Source: a virus. From it: 28,308 nucleotides of DNA. The notes under the pieces are model-generated. The model saw only the letters and a list, made by a program, of their open reading frames with translations. It was not told the origin of the DNA and ran no database searches. The DNA lies in the IMG/VR virus record IMGVR_UViG_3300014838_000065, positions 1-28,308 of that record; one strand, written 5' to 3'. Both the position numbers and the translations under genes were made by a program. How positions within the stretch are numbered: the first letter of the stretch is position 1; the number at the start of each line of letters is the position of its first letter. Of the stretch, positions 4,111-28,308 are shown in pieces.

Positions 4111-4937
4111 CTGAGATCGCCATGCGCCGCGAAGGCAATCATCTGGTTCCGGTCGATCCGGTCAGCGCTGAGATGCTGGCCGAGATACCGACGACCAAGG
4201 ATGTTCTGGTGACGGTCAAAGTTCCCAGAAACCTAAGACAATTTAGATTGGTCTGGGCGCTGGCAGATATTATCGCCAAGTCTGTCGATTGGTTGACTGA
4301 CCGAGAATCTGCCATGGATTGGTTGAAAATAAAATCGCGCCACGTCCGGATGATCCAAGACCCATTGCGCGGCACGGTGGCGATTGTTCCGAAGTCGATT
4401 GCGTTCGCATCGCTGGATCAGACGGGTTTCGCGCGGCTTTTAAACCGCATGGTATATGTTACCGTAACGGAGATAATTCCGGGCCTCGAAGAGGGTGCGC
4501 TGCGGGCCGAACTAGAGGCCATTGCTGGCGTCGATACGAAGCCCGCCAGTGAGCCCGATCCCGCGAAGCCACCCAAAGCCACCCGCGCCAAGAAAAACGC
4601 ACAGGATCAAGTTTCTGCAGCGGGAGGAGGTGAGCAAACCGGACCGGTCGGAGCACCGCAGCCCAACACCGACGCTCCGACCGGGAACCGCGCCGCTCCG
4701 ACCAACGAGGCGGAATATATCGCCGCTTTTCGGTCTTGGCTGAAAAAGCAGGACAGCAGGTTTCCCACGTTCGACCACTTTAACGGCGAGGTCCATCGCC
4801 AGATGCGCCTTGATTTGAAGATATCTACGGCAGTTCGGAAAAATCTAGAACGAGAGATAGGAGAGTATTTTGACGAAAAAGATAAGAGAAGTCGTTCCAC
4901 GTCCGTATCGGAGAACGGATCGGCGGAAAGTGTTTGA
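4107..4937 (+). CDS. Phage protein, DUF1367-like N-terminus
   Basis: Start at ATG 4107 in the ATGA overlap gives 276 residues. The N-terminal part (GNHLVPVDPVSAEMLAEIP, KVPRNLRQFRLVWALADIIA) resembles DUF1367 phage proteins, in which a short 'LVP' strand is followed by a PRN-x-(R/F)H/Q segment. This assignment is by eye and tentative. A low-complexity Pro/Ala/Lys linker (about residues 145-195) joins a helical C-terminal domain (AEYIAAFRSWLKKQ... FNGEVHRQMRLDL). The last 23 codons overlap the start of the downstream HNH gene, and the Ser-rich tail may be an altered end produced by that insertion. Confidence 0.65.
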   Translation: MTEIAMRREGNHLVPVDPVSAEMLAEIPTTKDVLVTVKVPRNLRQFRLVWALADIIAKSVDWLTDRESAMDWLKIKSRHVRMIQDPLRGTVAIVPKSIAFASLDQTGFARLLNRMVYVTVTEIIPGLEEGALRAELEAIAGVDTKPASEPDPAKPPKATRAKKNAQDQVSAAGGGEQTGPVGAPQPNTDAPTGNRAAPTNEAEYIAAFRSWLKKQDSRFPTFDHFNGEVHRQMRLDLKISTAVRKNLEREIGEYFDEKDKRSRSTSVSENGSAESV

Positions 4938-5229
4938 GGATAATTTTATTCCGGAGCCAAATTCTGGCTGTTATCTTTGGCTTTTGCGATTTGATCCCAA
5001 GGGATATGGCAGGTTTTGGGATGGAGAAAAAACCGTAACGTCCCATAGATTTTCTTTCCAAAACAGCAAGGGGCCCATTCCCCCCGATAAATGGGTGCTG
5101 CATTCCTGCGACAACCCAGCGTGCGTAAACCCAGATCACTTGTACTTGGGAGATCACGCTAAAAATATGAAAGACATGGTTGAGCGAGGCCGATCTAGAT
5201 GTGGCGAGCGGAATTCGTGGCCAAATTAA
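4870..5229 (+). CDS. HNH_3-type endonuclease, N-terminal part, frameshifted
   Basis: The likely start is TTG 4870, preceded by a strong GGAGAG about four bases upstream and lying inside the end of the previous gene. The 119 residues contain a classic HNH_3 core: SGCYLWLLRFDPKGYGRFW, the SHRFSF block, WVLHSCDNPACVNPDHLYLGD with catalytic-type His and the N-P-x-H metal site, then NMKDMVERGRSRCGERNSW. Family members continue into a C-terminal helix-turn-helix after a GERNxxAKL-type junction. Here the frame ends at SWPN, and the expected AKLSE... sequence sits in another frame (5199-5387). The gene is AT-rich relative to neighbours and looks like an invading homing endonuclease that is now broken. 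Confidence 0.8.
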   Translation: MTKKIREVVPRPYRRTDRRKVFEDNFIPEPNSGCYLWLLRFDPKGYGRFWDGEKTVTSHRFSFQNSKGPIPPDKWVLHSCDNPACVNPDHLYLGDHAKNMKDMVERGRSRCGERNSWPN

Positions 5230-5387
5230 GTGAGATTCAGGTAAAGGAAATTATTGCATCTTCGGAATCTGCCCAGATCATATCTGATAAATACAACATC
5301 AGCATTACCCACGCCTATCGGTTGAAACAAGGCGGTTTAAGATGGAAATATTTGGAGGCGAAAGATGAAAAAAATACGCAAGCCTAA
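5199..5387 (+). CDS. Out-of-frame C-terminal HTH part of the HNH_3 endonuclease
   Basis: Beginning near 5220 this frame reads AKLSEIQVKEIIASSES, then AQIISDKYNISITHAYRLKQG and LRWKYL. That is the recognisable DNA-binding helix-turn-helix that normally ends HNH_3 homing endonucleases. The ATG at 5199 lies in the other frame's coding region, and its first eight codons are probably not functional. Restoring one G in the TGG at 5218-5220 would join the two frames as GERNSWAKLSE. Independent translation of a free HTH peptide is possible but unproven. The tail overlaps the next start. Confidence 0.5.
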   Translation: MWRAEFVAKLSEIQVKEIIASSESAQIISDKYNISITHAYRLKQGGLRWKYLEAKDEKNTQA

Positions 5388-5670
5388 AATTCCTCGCGGG
5401 GAGGATCCCCAAGTCACAATCAAGAATCAGGAGCGGTTAATCAGTTTTCTGGTTGATCGCTGCCAGCAATGGCAGAAGCGGATTGATTCCCTTCATAATA
5501 TGGACCAATCCATCCAAAAATCTCATGAGCTAGAGCGTGAGATATTTAATCGGACGGCTAGGGAATTGAACGACAAAACCAATGCCTATACTAGAATGTT
5601 AGGCTGGCAGGATTGCGCGAGGGAAATGCTAGAACTCCGCGCCGATACCATGGCGGCGTCGCTGCCATGA
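5365..5670 (+). CDS. Coiled-coil phage protein, unknown
   Basis: ATG 5365 follows GGAGGCGAAAG, a strong ribosome site. The 101-residue product is basic at the N-terminus (MKKIRKPKIPRGEDP) and then helical and charged (IKNQERLISFLVDRCQQWQKRIDSLH..., ELEREIFNRTARELND), consistent with a coiled coil. No family is recognised. It ends in an ATGA shared with the next gene. Confidence 0.65.
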   Translation: MKKIRKPKIPRGEDPQVTIKNQERLISFLVDRCQQWQKRIDSLHNMDQSIQKSHELEREIFNRTARELNDKTNAYTRMLGWQDCAREMLELRADTMAASLP

Positions 5671-5873
5671 TGGTCCGCAACGCAAATGATCGGGCGGAAA
5701 AGGTTTCCGGCCTGACCGAGCAATATAGGGCTGGCGAGATATCCGAGCCGGTATTCGTTGCGTCGCTGCATGCGCTGGTCGATGTCGATCAGATCAGGTT
5801 TGCCTTGGACATGAACCGCGCCGCCCATAAGGCGAGCGCCAATTACAGAAGGAGAATGCAAAATGCTGTTTGA
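5667..5873 (+). CDS. Small helical phage protein (68 aa), unknown
   Basis: I choose the ATG in the ATGA overlap at 5667 over the longer frame at 5613. The product is charged and helical (NDRAEKVSGLTEQYRAGEISEPVFVASLHAL...), with a bihelical look like many small phage accessory proteins. No named family. Its end overlaps the next start by eleven bases and supplies that gene's ribosome site (AGAAGGAG). Confidence 0.6.
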   Translation: MMVRNANDRAEKVSGLTEQYRAGEISEPVFVASLHALVDVDQIRFALDMNRAAHKASANYRRRMQNAV

Positions 5874-6177
5874 TCCAAAATGGGAAGTACGCGCGGATGT
5901 TTTTTCGATCGAATCTCTCGTTAGCTGGCTTGAGAAACAACCAGCTAATAAAGCATATTGCTACTATGACCATGATGGATGTCTCCTTCATAAATATTTC
6001 TCAGCAGTAGGATTAAATCCAGTTTGGATAGGCGGACTGACATTCCAGACAAAAGATTTTCCAAATGTTTATCAGCCAATTCCAGAATTCATGCAGGATA
6101 TCTCTGCAGAAGAGCCTCACACATTCGGAGGCGCACTGGCTCGCGCCCGCGAAGCCGATCAAAGGATTTCAAAATGA
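5863..6177 (+). CDS. Hypothetical phage protein (104 aa)
   Basis: ATG 5863 is preceded by AGAAGGAGAATGC. The protein is aromatic-rich and globular (FSIESLVSWLEKQPANKAYCYYDHDGCLLHKYF), with no membrane segment or recognised motif. Its base composition is more AT-rich than the surrounding genes, hinting at a different origin. The end is coupled by ATGA to the next gene. Confidence 0.6.
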   Translation: MLFDPKWEVRADVFSIESLVSWLEKQPANKAYCYYDHDGCLLHKYFSAVGLNPVWIGGLTFQTKDFPNVYQPIPEFMQDISAEEPHTFGGALARAREADQRISK

Positions 6178-6587
6178 ATGACACCGCACTTTCGGACCAA
6201 GTTAGCCAGATGGTGGCCGAAAATCAGCATCTTCGCGTAAAATCGGAAAACGACGACAAACGGCTGGCACTGATGGGCGATCAATACGATGAACTCGCCG
6301 CATCGGTGGATGGCCTGCGCGACAAGCACGAGCGGAAAATCCACGACATGCGGACCGAGCGGGACCAAGCCGTGCGCCAGTTCAAGACCATCGAGGCGTT
6401 GCTGCTGCAGTCGTCGGCGATTATCATGCAGGCGCTACGGGCTAGGCAGGGCGACGATACGCCAGCGACTATCCCCGCCAAACCGATGGCTGTATCCAGC
6501 CACCCGCTGTTGCCGCTGGCCAATACGGCGCAGTTCGACGATGAAATCGGTCAGATCGTGACGACGCTGCGGTCAGGAACTGGTTAA
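6174..6587 (+). CDS. Coiled-coil phage protein (137 aa), unknown
   Basis: Starting in the ATGA overlap at 6174, residues about 5-80 form a long heptad-like helix (QVSQMVAENQHLRVKSEND, LAASVDGLRDKHERKIHDM, RTERDQAVRQFKTIEALLL). A Pro/Ala-rich segment and a short C-terminal helix (FDDEIGQIVTTLRSG) follow. Coiled-coil proteins like this are frequent in phage early regions; function cannot be assigned. Confidence 0.65.
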   Translation: MNDTALSDQVSQMVAENQHLRVKSENDDKRLALMGDQYDELAASVDGLRDKHERKIHDMRTERDQAVRQFKTIEALLLQSSAIIMQALRARQGDDTPATIPAKPMAVSSHPLLPLANTAQFDDEIGQIVTTLRSGTG

Positions 6588-10954: not shown

Positions 10955-12651
10955 ACGGCCCTCTCGACCAGGCCCTGCGCCGCAAGCAGCTAGAGGCCTT
11001 CGCCGGCCTGCTGGCAGAGAAGCGGCGCCGGGCGGCCAAGGTCGAGCATCAGACGCGCGGATATCGGGACGAGGACGGTGTTTGGCGCGGCGGGCTGCTG
11101 TCATTCATGCGAGCGTTCTGGCACATACTTGAGCCCGGTAAAAAGCTGATGGAAGGCTGGGTAATCGAGGCTATCTGCGAGCATCTAGAGGCGGTTGCAT
11201 ATGGCGAGGTAACGCGGCTTTTGATCACAGTCCCGCCAGGATGCTCAAAGTCGCTTTTGACCGACGTGTTCTTCCCGGCGTGGCTTTGGGCAATCGGGAA
11301 GGCTGAACTTCGGTTCATGGCGTTTTCCTATTCGGTCGACCTGACGCAGCGGGATAACGGTAGGTTCCGCGATCTGATCATGCATCCCGAGTTTCAGGCG
11401 ATGTACAAGAGCGAGTTCACGCTGCGGAAGGTTGGTGAGACCAAGGTTACAAACAATAAGCACGGATGGAAGATCGCGTCGTCGGTCGGCGGTCTCGGCA
11501 CCGGCGAGCGCGCAGACTTCCTGATCGTGGACGATCCCCATTCGGTTAAAACGTCGGAATCGGAGGATGTGAGAGACGAGACAATCCGGTGGTTCCGCGA
11601 GGTGCTGTCCGACCGCATGAACGACATGAGCAAGGGAGCGATTATCGTGATCATGCAGCGGGTTCATCAACACGACGTTGCGGGCGTGATTATGGACGAG
11701 GAGTTCGACTACTGCCATTTGTCGATATCGATGGAGTTCATGTGGGATGCGGACGAGAACGGCGAGCCCTATGCGACGGCTATAGGCTGGACGGATCCAC
11801 GGTGGCGCGAGGATATGGACGAGTGCGACGGCGCGCTGATGTGGCCGGAGCGCTTCCCGGAGGCCGTGGTCGAAAGCCTCAAGCGGGAAAAGGGGCCCTA
11901 CGCTTATGCAGCTCAGTACCTTCAGACGCCGGAAGCCCGCGGCGGCGGCATTATCAAGCGCGAGTTCTGGCAGCCGTGGGATGGCAAGTTCCCGGCGTTC
12001 TCGTATATCTTCGCATCGCTTGATGGCGCGTTTACCGAGGACGAGCAGAACGACCCTTCCGGCTTAACCGTTTGGGGAGTGTTCGAGGACGATCAAGGTC
12101 ACAACCGCGCAATGCTCATCTTTGCATGGGAAAAAAGGCTGGAGTTCGAGGGCCAGAGACTGCGGCCAGAGACGGGCGAGAACCAACGCGAGTTCATGGA
12201 GCGCCAGATGGGCGAGTGGGGGTTAGTCGAATGGACGGCCCACACGCTCAATTACTGGAAATGCGACAGATTACTGATCGAGGGTAAGGCGTCCGGGCTG
12301 AGTGTTGCCCAGGCTTTACAAAAGCGATATCGCAACAGGAACTGGTCAGTCGAGGTAATGGATGTCAAGGGCGACAAGGTAGCCCGAACAATCGCAGTTC
12401 AGGCCACTTTCTCGAACAAAATGGTCTATGCTCCCACCGCTAAGGATTGGTGTCAGAAGGTCATAGCCCAGATGGCGATCTTCCCGTACGGGGATCATGA
12501 TGATTTGCACGATTCCGCAACACAAGCCATGAAGCACCTCCGCGACCTTGGCCTGCTGGAGTTTGACGACGACATTAGGGCGGAGGAACTGCGGAACGCG
12601 CGGTTGCCGGAGAAGGACAACAAGCTCAAGAATTATTTGCCAGGCACATAA
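10951..12651 (+). CDS. terL: Terminase large subunit (packaging ATPase/nuclease)
   Basis: The 566-residue protein has the two domains of a phage packaging motor. In the ATPase domain are a Walker A variant VPPGCSKS (94-101), a Walker B LIVDDPH (191-197) and a coupling motif IIVIMQRVHQHD (231-242). In the RNase H-like nuclease domain are acidic residues at D358 (FASLDGAF), E444 (LLIEGKASG) and the D517-D521 cluster (GDHDDLHDS). Together these support ATP-driven DNA translocation into the prohead and cutting of the concatemer. The Walker A differs from GxxxxGKS by having PPGCSKS, a form seen in other phage terminases. It starts in an ATGA overlap with the zinc-ribbon gene. Confidence 0.95.
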   Translation: MNGPLDQALRRKQLEAFAGLLAEKRRRAAKVEHQTRGYRDEDGVWRGGLLSFMRAFWHILEPGKKLMEGWVIEAICEHLEAVAYGEVTRLLITVPPGCSKSLLTDVFFPAWLWAIGKAELRFMAFSYSVDLTQRDNGRFRDLIMHPEFQAMYKSEFTLRKVGETKVTNNKHGWKIASSVGGLGTGERADFLIVDDPHSVKTSESEDVRDETIRWFREVLSDRMNDMSKGAIIVIMQRVHQHDVAGVIMDEEFDYCHLSISMEFMWDADENGEPYATAIGWTDPRWREDMDECDGALMWPERFPEAVVESLKREKGPYAYAAQYLQTPEARGGGIIKREFWQPWDGKFPAFSYIFASLDGAFTEDEQNDPSGLTVWGVFEDDQGHNRAMLIFAWEKRLEFEGQRLRPETGENQREFMERQMGEWGLVEWTAHTLNYWKCDRLLIEGKASGLSVAQALQKRYRNRNWSVEVMDVKGDKVARTIAVQATFSNKMVYAPTAKDWCQKVIAQMAIFPYGDHDDLHDSATQAMKHLRDLGLLEFDDDIRAEELRNARLPEKDNKLKNYLPGT

Positions 12652-12674
12652 ACCAACGAGGAAAGGTTGATCAA

Positions 12675-12986
12675 ATGCATCCGTCAAACGACGACACCGG
12701 TGCGTCGATGGAAATGCCCCGATACAAGAGCCACAAGCAGGTTTGGGCGCTGGAGATCAAGGACGTTTTGCCGCTTTCCTATGAGGCTCAATTGGAGACA
12801 CAGCACACTCCGCAGCCTCGCTCGGTCACGTTCGTGGATAAGGGGTATGCGCCTATTTGGTGCCCTCCCGATATGTTCTCTCGTTACATGCCTGTTTCTG
12901 GCGACTTCTTCGTCCAATACGAGGACGGCTACAAATCGTTCAGTTCGCGCAAGGCGTTCTTTGAAGGCTATTCCTTGGTAACGTAA
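12675..12986 (+). CDS. Hypothetical phage protein (103 aa)
   Basis: ATG 12675 follows GAGGAAAGG. The C-terminal block (SGDFFVQYEDGYKSFSSRKAF) is a recurrent phage motif in which a small domain ends 'DGYxSxSPxxxFExGY'. Such proteins are commonly annotated only as phage proteins and lie near terminase or capsid genes. The stop overlaps the next ATG by one base. Confidence 0.7.
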   Translation: MHPSNDDTGASMEMPRYKSHKQVWALEIKDVLPLSYEAQLETQHTPQPRSVTFVDKGYAPIWCPPDMFSRYMPVSGDFFVQYEDGYKSFSSRKAFFEGYSLVT

Positions 12987-22818: not shown

Positions 22819-23114
22819 CGCGCGTTGTGTACGCGCAAGACGGTCGATCTGGCTGGACTTGGCAAGTCCACCATCTATCAGATTTCAATTTTGAAAGGCT
22901 AAATCCAAACATTGAAGGCGCTCCCATTTATTGGAACGGCGATAAGCTTTGGCCGAAGCCAGTCGGCGCAATTGTGGTGAAGGAATGTGACGAAATCAAA
23001 CATTCGGAATACAAACTGAAATACATGGGTTCATGCGGTGAAATGCATGAAACGTTTAGTGATTTTATCAATTGCAAATCATGTTTGCATTTTGAAGCCA
23101 AAGAGGACCAATGA
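22815..23114 (+). CDS. Hypothetical protein (99 aa), GTG start, AT-rich
   Basis: GTG 22815 overlaps the previous stop (GTGA) and the stop overlaps the next ATG (ATGA). The product is aromatic-rich (SGWTWQVHHLSDFNFERLNP), with four cysteines, two as CKSC near the end. Its base composition is clearly more AT-rich than both neighbours, suggesting a separate origin. No family is recognised. Confidence 0.6.
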   Translation: MTRVVYAQDGRSGWTWQVHHLSDFNFERLNPNIEGAPIYWNGDKLWPKPVGAIVVKECDEIKHSEYKLKYMGSCGEMHETFSDFINCKSCLHFEAKEDQ

Positions 23115-24733
23115 CATCCATACTTCTAGCAGTCCCGACCTATAAAAACCAGCTCACCGCATCGACCTTCCTGACCACGCACGCGCTGACAAACCTGATG
23201 CGGTCGAAGGGCATTCCGATGGGGGTAACGGCGATTTCGTCGCCGGACATCGAATGGGTGCGCAATTTCCTTTTAACGTACTGGTACGACAAAACGCCGC
23301 AGTACAGTCACATGCTGTTCGTGGACGATGACATGGCGTTCATGCCCGACGTCGTGGTCGACATGCTGCTATTCAACGAGCCCGTGGTCGGCGCGCTGTA
23401 CCCGAAGAAGGTCTATCCGGTGCAATGGGCGGTTTCTGGCATTGCCAACCCGGAATCGCGCGGGCCGTTCCTCGAGGTCGAGGGGCTGGGATGCGGGTGC
23501 TTCCTGATCCGCCGCGACGCGGTGACTACCATGATCGAAAAGATGCCGCACCTGATCGACACGAAGAAATATGCGACGGAAAACGACTTCATGAACCGGG
23601 AAGGGCTCAATCGCCTGATCCGGCTGTTCAACTGCATCGAGGACACCGATAAGGGTCGGGTTTCCGAGGACATCTCGTTCTGCCGGCGCTGGCGGGAATG
23701 CGGCGGTCAGGTATGGGCTGCGACGCACCACAAGATGGTTCATGTCGGGCCTCATGAGTATGCCCAGACCTATGCGGAATGGGCGCAGGTGGAGATGAAA
23801 AAGGACGCCGATACGCGGGAGGCTGAGATTGCCGCCGCGCCGATCTTCAAGGAGCGTCCCGCACTGCGGGGCAAAGCCTGCAAGCACGGGCTATTCATCT
23901 ACAATCCGAACGACACGTTTATTGGGGCGTCGATGGAGGCTTACGGGGAATGGTGCGAGTACGAGATTGATCTGCTTCGGAAGTTTATCAAGGAAGGCGA
24001 CACGGTTATCGATGTCGGTGCCAATATTGGGACGCATGCGATCGCGTTTTCCATGATGGTGGGCAAGACTGGCAAGGTTTTTGCGTTTGAGCCCCAGCCT
24101 CGATTGGAGGCTATCCTTGCGGCCAACATCCATTTGAACAAGCTGCAAAACGTGTTTTGGTCGGATAAGGCGGTGGGAGATTTTGTAGCTCCAATCAGGA
24201 TTTTGGATATTCCGCCGGATACTGTCCAATATAATTTTGGGGCGGTGAATATTTTCAAAGGGCCAAAGCCGGGATACCCAGACAATGGGCTGGACACCGA
24301 CATGGTCACCATCGACTCGTTCGCCGCCGATATGTCGCCGACGGTCATCAAGATCGACGTAGAGGGCATGGAGGCGGACGTGGTGCGCGGCGCGCGGGAG
24401 ACCATCGAGCGGTGCGGGCCGATCCTGTACATCGAGAATAATGGTGATGATTCGGAGGCTATCACGCCGGCCTTGGACGAGATCGGTTATCGGGCGTATT
24501 GGTCCATAGGTCCGTTTTTCCATCCCATGAACGCATTCAAAAACCCCACCAATATCTGGGGCAACAAGCTTCAAAAGCTCGCTGCAAACCTGATCGCAGT
24601 TCCCAACGATGAAATAGAGCGCTGGGTGCCATTCGTTAAAGCTGAGATGCCTCTGTTTATCGGCGCGGACGACAACTGGCGCAAGGCTATCGAGCGGATG
24701 GCGGCGGCTTACCACAAGCAGGCAGCGGAATGA
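23111..24733 (+). CDS. Glycosyltransferase (GT-A) / FkbM methyltransferase fusion
   Basis: A 540-residue two-domain protein. Residues 1-240 form a GT-A-type glycosyltransferase: start strand ILLAVPTYKN, metal-binding acidic motif LFVDDDM (D72-D74), GLGCGCFLIRRD and GRVSEDISFCRRW, where SED could supply the base. Residues about 275-445 form an FkbM-family SAM-dependent methyltransferase: VIDVGANIGTHA (299-310) binds SAM, VFAFEPQP follows, and VIKIDVEGMEADVVRGA (412-428) is the FkbM hallmark. The fusion would transfer a sugar and O-methylate it, or act on a glycan twice. The substrate (virion protein, host envelope or DNA) is not visible. It is coupled by ATGA at both ends to small genes within the late operon. 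Confidence 0.88.
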   Translation: MTSILLAVPTYKNQLTASTFLTTHALTNLMRSKGIPMGVTAISSPDIEWVRNFLLTYWYDKTPQYSHMLFVDDDMAFMPDVVVDMLLFNEPVVGALYPKKVYPVQWAVSGIANPESRGPFLEVEGLGCGCFLIRRDAVTTMIEKMPHLIDTKKYATENDFMNREGLNRLIRLFNCIEDTDKGRVSEDISFCRRWRECGGQVWAATHHKMVHVGPHEYAQTYAEWAQVEMKKDADTREAEIAAAPIFKERPALRGKACKHGLFIYNPNDTFIGASMEAYGEWCEYEIDLLRKFIKEGDTVIDVGANIGTHAIAFSMMVGKTGKVFAFEPQPRLEAILAANIHLNKLQNVFWSDKAVGDFVAPIRILDIPPDTVQYNFGAVNIFKGPKPGYPDNGLDTDMVTIDSFAADMSPTVIKIDVEGMEADVVRGARETIERCGPILYIENNGDDSEAITPALDEIGYRAYWSIGPFFHPMNAFKNPTNIWGNKLQKLAANLIAVPNDEIERWVPFVKAEMPLFIGADDNWRKAIERMAAAYHKQAAE

Positions 24734-25069: not shown

Positions 25070-25822
25070 TTAGGCGACAGTCTGGGTCAGGACCGATGAG
25101 GTCGAGCCAGCGTTATTAGCGTCGCCACTATAGACCGCCGTGATGGCGTGAGAGCCGGCAGGGGCGGCAAAGGTCGCCGAGAACGTGGTCGTTCCGGTGG
25201 AGTCCAGAGTGCCTGTGCCGAGTACGGTGGCGCCATCCAGGAACTGCACTGTTCCAGTTGGCGACGGTGATACGGGCGCCGCGGCGATGGACGATTGCGG
25301 CAGGTTCTGTATGGTGCTGGGCGCGCCAGTGGCGGTGGACTTGGCTTGTGGCGTGGCAGCGGACGTCTGCACCACAACAGCGGTGAGAACCACCGGAGTG
25401 CCCACGGTCCCCGGGTTGGTACCTGAGGTTACGGTAATGGAGGTTGCCGCAGTTCCGCCGATGCCTGTACCGGTTCCCGTCGCTGACGGTGTATTGGCGA
25501 GGATAGCGTCGGAAATCTCTTGTTTATGCGCGTTGATGGCCGCGAAGATCGCGTTCACCTTGGCGACGCCGGCGGGGCTGATAGGCTCGCCAGCCAATGC
25601 TTGATCGAGCTGGGTCTTGATGCCTGAGGTGAGGGTGATTAGCGAATCAACTTCGGTTTTCTCTGCGGCAGTGTTGGCAAGTACGTCGTCGAGGGTTGCG
25701 TCGGCCATGGCCTGGTGCCTTTCAATGGCGGTGAATTCTCTGAGCGATAGCTGTTCTAGATGGATCAGCCGGCTTTCGATCCGAGCAAGTGTTGCCAGCA
25801 CATGGGGCCACGAGAACTGCAT
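25070..25822 (-). CDS. Ig-like (Big_3-type) domain surface protein
   Basis: This minus-strand gene encodes 250 residues. ATG 25822 has AGGTGG just upstream; ATG 25708 is an alternative. Residues 1-110 are helical, with a coiled-coil look (TLDDVLANTAAEKTEVDSLI..., VNAIFAAINAHKQEI). A Thr/Gly/Ala/Ser-rich linker covers about 110-180. The C-terminal about 65 residues form a bacterial Ig-like repeat of the Big_3 type (GTVQFLDGATVLGTGTLDS, HAITAVYSGDANNAGS). Phage Ig-like domains sit on virion surfaces and can aid weak adhesion to cell surfaces or glycans. No signal peptide is evident. Opposite orientation, its own terminator and a candidate promoter mark it as part of a moron-like insert. Confidence 0.8.
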   Translation of the reverse strand: MQFSWPHVLATLARIESRLIHLEQLSLREFTAIERHQAMADATLDDVLANTAAEKTEVDSLITLTSGIKTQLDQALAGEPISPAGVAKVNAIFAAINAHKQEISDAILANTPSATGTGTGIGGTAATSITVTSGTNPGTVGTPVVLTAVVVQTSAATPQAKSTATGAPSTIQNLPQSSIAAAPVSPSPTGTVQFLDGATVLGTGTLDSTGTTTFSATFAAPAGSHAITAVYSGDANNAGSTSSVLTQTVA

Positions 25823-26231: not shown

Positions 26232-26615
26232 ATGGCAAAACCGGATCTTGATTGGTTTGCCTCGATGCTGCCGCCCAAGCGGGCCAGATCGAGGCGGCAG
26301 TCAGAACTTCATAAGTTTATCTCTACGCCGTGTCCCTATTGCGGTGACGAAATGAGCAAAATGTTACCCCGTCACGGCAAGCAAAATTCGACCGACATGA
26401 AATTCCCGACGCGCGATCACATAGTTCCCAAATCCAAAGGAAAAACATTGTCTGGGAATAAAATCATCGTGTGTCGGGAGTGTAACGAACTCAAAGGCCC
26501 CCGCGACTTGAAGGAGTTTTTTATCTATCTGGCGTCACATCCTCCGTCACCGCGAAAGCTAAAGCGCATTCATCACGTCAAGCGTCTGCTATTCGAAATG
26601 GCACCGTCAGATTGA
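26232..26615 (+). CDS. HNH endonuclease
   Basis: The 127-residue protein carries a canonical HNH core: CPYCGDEM (about residues 34-41), then TRDHIVPKSKGKTLSGNKIIVCRECNELKG (about 59-88). The central DH, the Asn and the CxxC pairs are all in place, and the metal site looks intact. The N-terminus is basic. The gene is somewhat AT-rich and lies between the minus-strand cassette and the capsid module, typical of a mobile homing-type nuclease; some HNH proteins near capsid genes instead assist terminase. No clear ribosome site precedes ATG 26232. Confidence 0.8.
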   Translation: MAKPDLDWFASMLPPKRARSRRQSELHKFISTPCPYCGDEMSKMLPRHGKQNSTDMKFPTRDHIVPKSKGKTLSGNKIIVCRECNELKGPRDLKEFFIYLASHPPSPRKLKRIHHVKRLLFEMAPSD

Positions 26616-26681: not shown

Positions 26682-26814
26682 AGGGCAAGCGGAAGTTAGC
26701 AGCGTCTCTCTTCCCAGCCACGTCAATCGTTCCCCGCGCGGAATGATATTTTCCGGCTAAAATCCAAGGCAGGGCCTGCTTAGGAAGCCTCCAAAAGGGA
26801 GCTTGCCTACCGCC

Positions 26815-27441
26815 ATGGCCAACACACAAACCGCTTTCGGATTCCGCCATGTCGGGTTTCTGCCCGGCGCATCCCCCGATTACCAGCTTTCCACGCGGCT
26901 GATCGCATCAAGCAACACCACGTCGATTTATTTCGGTGATCCGATCATCAAAGTGGCGACCACCCAGTACATCGCTGCCGCAACCGCCAACACCATCACC
27001 GTCGACGGCATATTTCAGGGGTGCATGCTCATCCCATCCACCGGCGGCGCTCCAGTATTTTCGCCATACTATCCTGGGGCGGCCGGCGCCGACGTGACGG
27101 CCTACGTGATAGAGGCCCCCAGCGCACTGTTCATGGCCGCCGCCACCAATACCAACATCCCGAACACCCTGATCGGACAGAATATCGGTTTCTCGACCGG
27201 TACGGGCTCGACGTTCGGTGCCGGACTTTCCGGATATACGCTGGATCAGAGCACCACGGCCACCACCAATACCCTGCCGTTCCAGCTTGTGGCACTGCTC
27301 GGTGCACCCGGCAATAGCAACTGGGGCAGCGGCGGCGCGGGTGCCGGAGCAGGCAACGGTGCCGATTCAACTTCGGCGTACAATTGGTGCATCGTCTGCT
27401 TCCAAAACCAACGCTTCAAGCAGCTAACGGGAGTGGCGTGA
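26815..27441 (+). CDS. Putative capsid decoration/head-stabilising protein
   Basis: I take ATG 26815; TTG 26803 is an alternative but too near the GGGAG. The 208-residue protein starts MANTQTAFGFRHVGFLPGASPDY, an opening widespread in proteins encoded just before the major capsid protein. It is Thr/Ala/Gly/Ser-rich, beta-rich and has few charged residues (YFGDPIIKVATTQYIAAATA, VTAYVIEAPSALFM, Gly-rich GSGGAGAGAGNGAD near the C-terminus). Proteins in this position often form trimers or spikes on the capsid surface. Function is by position and composition. Confidence 0.7.
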   Translation: MANTQTAFGFRHVGFLPGASPDYQLSTRLIASSNTTSIYFGDPIIKVATTQYIAAATANTITVDGIFQGCMLIPSTGGAPVFSPYYPGAAGADVTAYVIEAPSALFMAAATNTNIPNTLIGQNIGFSTGTGSTFGAGLSGYTLDQSTTATTNTLPFQLVALLGAPGNSNWGSGGAGAGAGNGADSTSAYNWCIVCFQNQRFKQLTGVA

Positions 27442-27478
27442 TCTGAGCAATCGGACGCACGCGCGACCATGATTTAAT

Positions 27479-27484
27479 AGGAGG
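27479..27484 (+). promoter_or_regulatory. Shine-Dalgarno that fixes an ATC start for the capsid gene
   Basis: A perfect AGGAGG lies five bases before ATC at 27490. No ATG, GTG or TTG occurs in this frame between the in-frame stop TAG at 27478-27480 and ATG 27562, which has no ribosome site. A copy of the eight bases ending in CAT, at 27463-27470, is followed by ATG-ATT-TAA. Confidence 0.8.
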
Positions 27485-27489
27485 CGACC

Positions 27490-28308
27490 ATCCCCGTAGC
27501 TCTCGCAAATATTCGCTCCGAACTCCTGCCCGGATTATTTGACGTACGCGGTTCGTACGAAATGATACCGAGACAATGGGACAAGGTTTTCAAGACCCAC
27601 AAATCGAACATGGCGGTCGAGAGATCGACGCAGATGGCGTTTGTGGGTCTGCCGTTCCTCAAGGACGAGGGTGCGGCCACTCAGTTCGACAACAATGCCG
27701 GCGAGAGGTTTACGTGGGCGTTCGTGCATATCGAGGTGGCGCTGGGCTACGCGATTACCCGCAAGGCCATCGACGACAATCTGTACAAGGCACAAGTCAA
27801 TCCGACTAACCTAAAACTGCAGGAAGCGTTTGCGCAGTTCAAGGAAATCCAGGGCGCCAACGTCTTGAACCTTGGCAACGTCTACAATTCCGCGCAGATC
27901 GGCGACGGCCAGGCGCTGTTCTCGACCGCGCATCCATTCGATGGCGGCACATGGGCGAACACCTCGAGCGTTCCCAAGTCGCTCAACGAGTCATCGCTTC
28001 TCGCCAACATGACCAACGTCCGCACCAATTTCGTCAACGAACGCGGTCTTCGTATTTTGTCCCGCGCCCGTCGACTGGTTGCGCCGACCGGTCTCGAGGC
28101 CGTTGCGATCCGCCTGTGCAAGACCGAGCTCCGGCCCGGCACCGCGCAGAACGACGTCAACGCCATCCTCACCCTGTCGGGCGGACTGCCGGAAGGCTTC
28201 ATCGTCCTGGACTTCCTCACATCCGCCTTCGCGTGGTTCCTCACGACGAATATCGAAGGCCTCATCCATATGCTCCGTATTCCTTACGAGAGCGACATGT
28301 GGGTTGAC
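27490..28308 (+). CDS. Major capsid protein, N-terminal part (3' end outside window)
   Basis: The frame runs open from 27481 to the end of the window, so at least 273 residues are visible. Product features resemble Mu gpT-type/HK97-fold major capsid proteins: PVALANIRSELLPGLFDV at the start, HKSNMAVERSTQMAF, EVALGYAITRKAIDDNLY, ALFSTAHPFDGGTWAN and RILSRARRLVAPTGLEAVAIR. The expected first Met is an ATC codon at 27490, five bases after AGGAGG; the first canonical start (ATG 27562) would delete 24 residues. The order decoration-capsid after scaffold and portal is standard. I infer the shell subunit role; the 3' end is missing. Confidence 0.85.
   Translation, partial: MPVALANIRSELLPGLFDVRGSYEMIPRQWDKVFKTHKSNMAVERSTQMAFVGLPFLKDEGAATQFDNNAGERFTWAFVHIEVALGYAITRKAIDDNLYKAQVNPTNLKLQEAFAQFKEIQGANVLNLGNVYNSAQIGDGQALFSTAHPFDGGTWANTSSVPKSLNESSLLANMTNVRTNFVNERGLRILSRARRLVAPTGLEAVAIRLCKTELRPGTAQNDVNAILTLSGGLPEGFIVLDFLTSAFAWFLTTNIEGLIHMLRIPYESDMWVD

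Follow-up and report, generated by a model that had tools for sequence, protein, structure and literature searches.

Translation starts at AUU or AUC are very rare, and the best-known case is an autoregulated translation factor. In infC, which encodes the factor IF3, the start is ATT in E. coli and ATC in Streptomyces, and IF3 acts as a repressor of starts of this kind (PMC5472188). For the weak starts GUG and UUG, a known prokaryotic trend is that a strengthened Shine-Dalgarno (SD) sequence offsets the weaker codon (PMC5622118). Homing-endonuclease genes (HEGs), in turn, cluster beside essential phage genes, capsid genes among them (PMC10448857).

The locus described here lies in a linear viral sequence of 28,308 bp (hereafter, the window), which constitutes an entire IMG/VR record and whose end falls within the capsid gene. 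Its major capsid protein appears to begin at ATC. Since initiation at AUC or AUU is normally poor, this is an odd choice for the most abundant protein of the virion. We examined the site in the window and in its relatives, referring to ATC and ATT together as ATY.

The capsid start site in the window and its relatives

The window's capsid protein matched the phrog_371 major head protein profile (E=1.2e-7), as did all 19 aligned family members, and it is 59.7% identical to the annotated major capsid protein of phage MW202675. No solved structure matched it by sequence, and the confidence of its AlphaFold2 model (pLDDT 31.6) was too low for use on the question of an HK97-like fold. Homologues of the gene preceding it also stand before the capsid gene in relatives, and in annotated phages a gene of similar size stops 2-24 nt ahead of the capsid gene. 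The features of this junction are as follows:

26815-27441, plus strand: upstream gene of about 200 aa (MANTQ...), phrog_37556, of unknown function; TTG at 26803 is an alternative start
27442-27489, plus strand: 48-nt leader that separates the capsid start from the upstream gene and holds no homing-endonuclease gene
27463-27470, plus strand: first copy of the 8-bp repeat GCGACCAT; the second copy is at 27484-27491
27469-27477, plus strand: two-codon mini-ORF ATG ATT TAA, in the capsid frame and seen in the window only
27476-27485, plus strand: leader core AATAGGAGGC, common to all ATC/ATT alleles, with a single occurrence in each ATY record
27478-27480, plus strand: in-frame stop TAG, present in all five ATY alleles
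27479-27484, plus strand: SD sequence AGGAGG, exactly 5 nt from the start codon in every ATY allele
27490-27492, plus strand: ATC start codon of the major capsid protein, homologous to the ATG, GTG, TTG, ATT and ATC starts of relatives
27490-28308, plus strand: major capsid protein gene, cut by the record end (273 of about 304 codons present)
27562-27564, plus strand: ATG at codon 25 (M25), the next in frame, rejected as the start (no SD sequence; Gln in L005/L006 and in L147)

Several neighbouring genes were also observed. An HNH nuclease gene (26232-26615) lies just 5' of the gene preceding the capsid gene, near the spot at which relatives carry a NUMOD4-HNH insertion. A minus-strand gene (25070-25822) that encodes a bacterial Ig-like domain (Big_3_5) sits among forward-strand genes, and positions 23111-24733 encode a 540-aa protein with an N-terminal phrog_1574 region and an FkbM methyltransferase.

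The capsid frame reads ATG ATT TAA TAG GAG GCG ACC ATC CCC GTA GCT, with the spacer CGACC (27485-27489) standing between AGGAGG and ATC; the initial annotation had placed both elements exactly. It had also stated, correctly, that no ATG, GTG or TTG occurs in frame before 27562. Upstream, the frame is closed by the TAG at 27478, four codons 5' of ATC, and an N-terminal extension is therefore excluded. The near copy that it had noticed in the leader is likewise real: GCGACCAT is repeated exactly, and the first copy ends in a genuine ATG (27469) that is followed by ATT TAA. Shuffling of 51-nt leaders yields a direct repeat of 8 bp about 0.9% of the time, so that its occurrence in the window is only mildly unusual; none of the other ATC/ATT leaders has it.

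Relatives were gathered with the capsid protein, and the codon corresponding to the first residue was read in each, a comparison that the initial annotation had proposed. Across 88 nonredundant sequences (L148, whose frame is shifted, was left out), this codon was ATG in 66, GTG in 13, TTG in 3, ATT in 4 and ATC in 2. ATG also occupies the homologous position in the annotated phages MW202675, HTVC023P and DSL-LC04, and the annotated start of Pag-Yong1 lies one codon further upstream. An IMG/VR-wide search with a motif covering residue 2 onward recovered 104 family members, 97 with NTG, 7 with ATT or ATC and none with any other first codon. Separate pattern scans returned 7 ATH and 97 NTG sequences, whose exact sum is the 104 obtained when the first codon was left free, and a looser AGGAGG-plus-ATH pattern returned the same seven contigs only.

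Overall, the window and seven further contigs carry five distinct alleles in which the homologous start codon is ATC or ATT; their DNA is 75-83% identical. Three of these alleles were each found in two assemblies, differing by 1-3 SNPs over 2.8-33 kb. At the conserved start they offer ATT or ATC with no usable NTG, and all five have a strong, well-spaced SD sequence (AGGAGG plus 5 nt). Within codons 2-25, the ATY alleles show 138 synonymous against 20 nonsynonymous codon differences; in the same frame upstream of the start the counts are 4 and 125, a random pattern. Since codons 2-25 are constrained and the upstream frame is random, translation starts at or next to ATY.

These results bear on two simpler readings of the site. 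The true start could lie downstream, at M25 or at the N-terminal TTG of some alleles, leaving the preceding codons untranslated; M25, which the initial annotation had kept as an alternative, is indeed the window's first standard start and the one that gene callers would choose. However, the constraint on codons 2-25 in the ATY alleles is strong and acts at the protein level, M25 has no SD sequence before it and is replaced by Gln in the ATC allele L005/L006, and both the ATG relatives and the annotated phages use the upstream position, so that a downstream start is highly improbable. The initial annotation had also allowed for an error, and a sequencing or assembly error of ATG would need to alter just one base in a metagenomic record. 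Yet ATC or ATT occurs in five diverged alleles, seven contigs besides the window among their sources, always together with AATAGGAGGC, and the error-type codons AAG, ACG and AGG account for 0 of the 104 family members; the chance that ATC is such an error is close to nil. Because the alleles recur, the first codon is only ever NTG or ATY, codons 2-25 are constrained and position 25 can be Gln, we take ATC/ATT to be the start and not an error. Judged by sequence comparison, its recurrence at the capsid start is genuine, and initiation at ATC, as first proposed, is well supported by the relatives' homologous starts and the synonymous constraint. Four more alleles have the same AATAGGAGGC-N4-ATY at the corresponding start, which is far beyond chance.

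Shine-Dalgarno strength, spacing and nuclease genes at weak starts

In relatives, the upstream and capsid genes lie 11-16 nt (coupled) or 42-68 nt apart, or a reverse-strand HNH gene takes up the gap; in the window the distance is 48 nt. Among the 57 ATG relatives in which the end of the upstream gene was located, 30 have it no more than 20 nt from the capsid start; where several hundred nucleotides separate the two in an ATG relative, it is mostly another plus-strand gene that ends at the start. The gaps of weak-start relatives contain a reverse-strand NUMOD4-HNH gene or a decayed copy of it (L051), or measure 42-68 nt. Proteins encoded in the gaps of L005, L024 and L060 match NUMOD4 and HNH_3; the short gap of the window, and those of L058 and L068, hold no HNH gene. 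The HNH gene of L051 has an internal deletion and, therefore, decay of this gene does happen.

Weak-start gaps were measured from the conserved upstream gene, as automatic assignment of the nearest upstream gene was misled by frames antisense to HNH genes. Such long plus-strand frames, antisense to the HNH gene and stopping at capsid codons 3-4, were observed in L030, L024, L060 and L062. These open frames reaching the capsid start are probably due to chance, and they could couple translation.

The weakness of the start codon went together with the strength of the SD sequence and the width of the gap. AGGAGG precedes 14 of 19 non-ATG starts vs 4 of 63 ATG starts (p=1e-8), the gap exceeds 35 nt in 15/16 vs 15/54 (p=3e-6), and an HNH gene occupies it in 7/19 vs 1/63 (p=9e-5). 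When reduced to phylogenetically independent pairs, the association with GGAGG was retained (7.3 pairs in the same direction, 0 against, median p=0.016), that with the gap was borderline (p=0.06), and that with the HNH gene was not significant (about 3.5 with, 1 against). Exceptions occur: L041 has an HNH gene together with ATG, and L118 has GTG together with coupling. A sister lineage at about 63% protein identity has ATG in 80 of 80 loci, and its upstream gene ends at most 16 nt from the start in all 50 nonredundant loci tested, i.e., the two genes are tightly coupled.

Our favoured explanation, to which we assign a probability of about 0.7, is that the ATC start belongs to a capsid gene whose translation became uncoupled after the insertion or decay of a mobile gene, and which would now be initiated through a strong SD sequence and a weak start. 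In the ancestor, as in most relatives and in the sister lineage, the capsid gene would have started with ATG just past the stop of the upstream gene, a position that permits translation by coupling. Insertion of a mobile NUMOD4-HNH gene may then have broken this tight junction, and the gap of 42-68 nt seen in the window, L058 and L068 is possibly the scar of such a gene. Once uncoupled, the capsid gene would rely on independent initiation from a full-strength SD sequence, with the perfect AGGAGG and its exact 5-nt spacing holding the 30S subunit at ATC and the ordinary initiator tRNA presumably reading this codon to place fMet at position 1. The strong SD sequence would thereby free the start codon to weaken to GTG, TTG, ATT or ATC while initiation continued at an acceptable rate. 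The AATAGGAGGC-NNNN-ATY module, which at least five related alleles from uncultured soil phages have in common, may have spread by recombination. The initial annotation had suggested that ATC may tune capsid output, as in infC, which is plausible; compensation would fit the full AGGAGG of all ATY alleles at least as well.

The shared leader and alternative explanations

The core AATAGGAGGC was found in 6 of 6 ATY leaders (five distinct alleles, two near-copies) and in 0 of 61 other GGAG leaders, and all five ATY alleles follow the pattern AATAGGAGGC-NNNN-ATY-CCN with TAG in frame. A capsid gene tree was built without the start codon. Four changes are required to explain the ATY rows on it, with well-supported branches forcing three or more of them, and the weak starts GTG, TTG, ATT and ATC interchange among close relatives. 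A single origin of the ATY capsid gene by descent was rejected, as placing these rows in one clade gave an AU p of about 1e-47; leader exchange or convergence is therefore required. A leader common to capsid bodies that fall outside one clade suggests recombinational exchange of the leader, with convergence a possible alternative source.

RNA folding revealed no clear difference in leader accessibility between the start-codon classes. Hairpins lie 5' of the SD sequence in four of the five ATY leaders (z -2.4 to -5.2), the window having no simple one, and GC-rich stable hairpins were noted at L006 2922-2955, L024 2923-2956, L058 ~1800-1835 and L068 ~2950-2976. None of the ATY leader hairpins has a clear terminator T-run (L068 has a possible one), and a promoter and terminator scan around the capsid start region gave nothing above chance. 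A self-splicing intron at the start was rejected, with 0 Rfam matches in the window and the five ATY loci. A special initiator tRNA was rejected as well: neither the window nor the ATY records that were checked encode a tRNA with an anticodon for AUC/AUU. As a separate observation, L196 (the record of L030, whose capsid start is TTG) carries 14 tRNA genes at 4681-6197, including tRNA-Met (CAT). Wider use of ATY starts was likewise rejected: in a homologous-start check of ten records, the capsid gene was the only one to combine ATY with a strong SD sequence, and the other odd start codons were alignment-edge artefacts.

A look-alike of the capsid N-terminus was observed in L183 (G001), the record of L006. 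The protein encoded at positions 12605-12841 has 79 aa and carries a Tat-like signal (MNRRGFLTGLIATLAAPAIVR), and its end is 61% identical to the capsid N-terminus (IRDHLLPGLFDVSGSYEMLPRQWARLF). Its only match in the phage collection is a capsid protein, limited to the capsid-like stretch; it may be a capsid N-terminus mimic or the relic of a gene fusion.

Several other explanations of the ATY starts can be weighed against these data. By analogy with infC and sigR, AUC and AUU may be kept for their sensitivity to IF3, full capsid translation setting in only when free IF3 or host competition drops late in infection. The identical leader and the restriction to two AUY codons across diverged capsid bodies look selected, the confinement to the capsid gene in the ten records agrees with such a role, and repression of ATT/ATC starts by IF3 has the infC precedent (PMC5472188). 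However, GTG, TTG, ATT and ATC vary freely between close relatives, as would be expected of rate tuning rather than of a specific switch, and a strong SD sequence would cancel part of the penalty; we therefore consider IF3 control unlikely. A related scheme, in which a nuclease hot spot with a transferable leader places the capsid gene under AUU/AUC and makes it dependent on initiation factors, the module spreading by recombination at the start codon, appears similarly doubtful.

Alternatively, the start codon and leader may have changed to resist a neighbouring homing endonuclease that cuts at the capsid-start junction. An HNH gene accompanies weak starts (10/22 vs 1/66 leaders), and the clustering of HEGs around capsid and other essential phage genes (PMC10448857) is in line with this; several ATY alleles, though, have no HNH gene, and L041 keeps ATG beside one, which leaves immunity improbable. 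The mini-ORF of the window (27469-27477) could also feed terminating ribosomes into re-initiation at ATC, as its TAA directly precedes the TAG of the leader core and the two share a frame. Its absence from the other four ATY alleles and the lack of an SD sequence before its ATG make this very unlikely. Uncoupling offset by a strong SD sequence remains the explanation that we prefer.

Comparison with known systems

The repeated occurrence of AUU/AUC, behind one fixed leader, on the most heavily made phage protein calls into question the idea that a start codon of this kind implies low output. With ATG, GTG, TTG, ATT and ATC all found in close relatives, this family provides a natural series, and a testbed, for the trade-off between SD strength, coupling and start codon. 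Gene callers will truncate capsid proteins that start with ATY. The data further suggest that mobile nuclease genes may reshape the expression of their essential neighbours.

A search of open-licence papers turned up no account of a capsid gene initiated at AUU/AUC. AUU/AUC initiation, SD compensation and capsid-adjacent nucleases are each known; their conjunction, with a fixed leader on a major capsid gene, was not encountered in that literature. Like infC, the capsid gene is initiated at AUU/AUC, and annotations of genes of this kind often place the start wrongly at a standard codon nearby (PMC5472188). Unlike infC, it encodes a virion structural protein and not a translation factor, so autoregulation is inapplicable, and it lies beside a mobile-gene insertion site. 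The related phages resemble those with free-standing HEGs (PMC10448857) in carrying NUMOD4-HNH beside the capsid gene; here, however, insertion accompanies an altered SD sequence and start codon in the neighbouring gene, and the window's own gap contains no such nuclease gene. As in the compensation of GUG and UUG (PMC5622118), a weak start is paired with a strong SD sequence among close relatives, but the capsid case extends this pairing to AUU and AUC, within one shared leader module.
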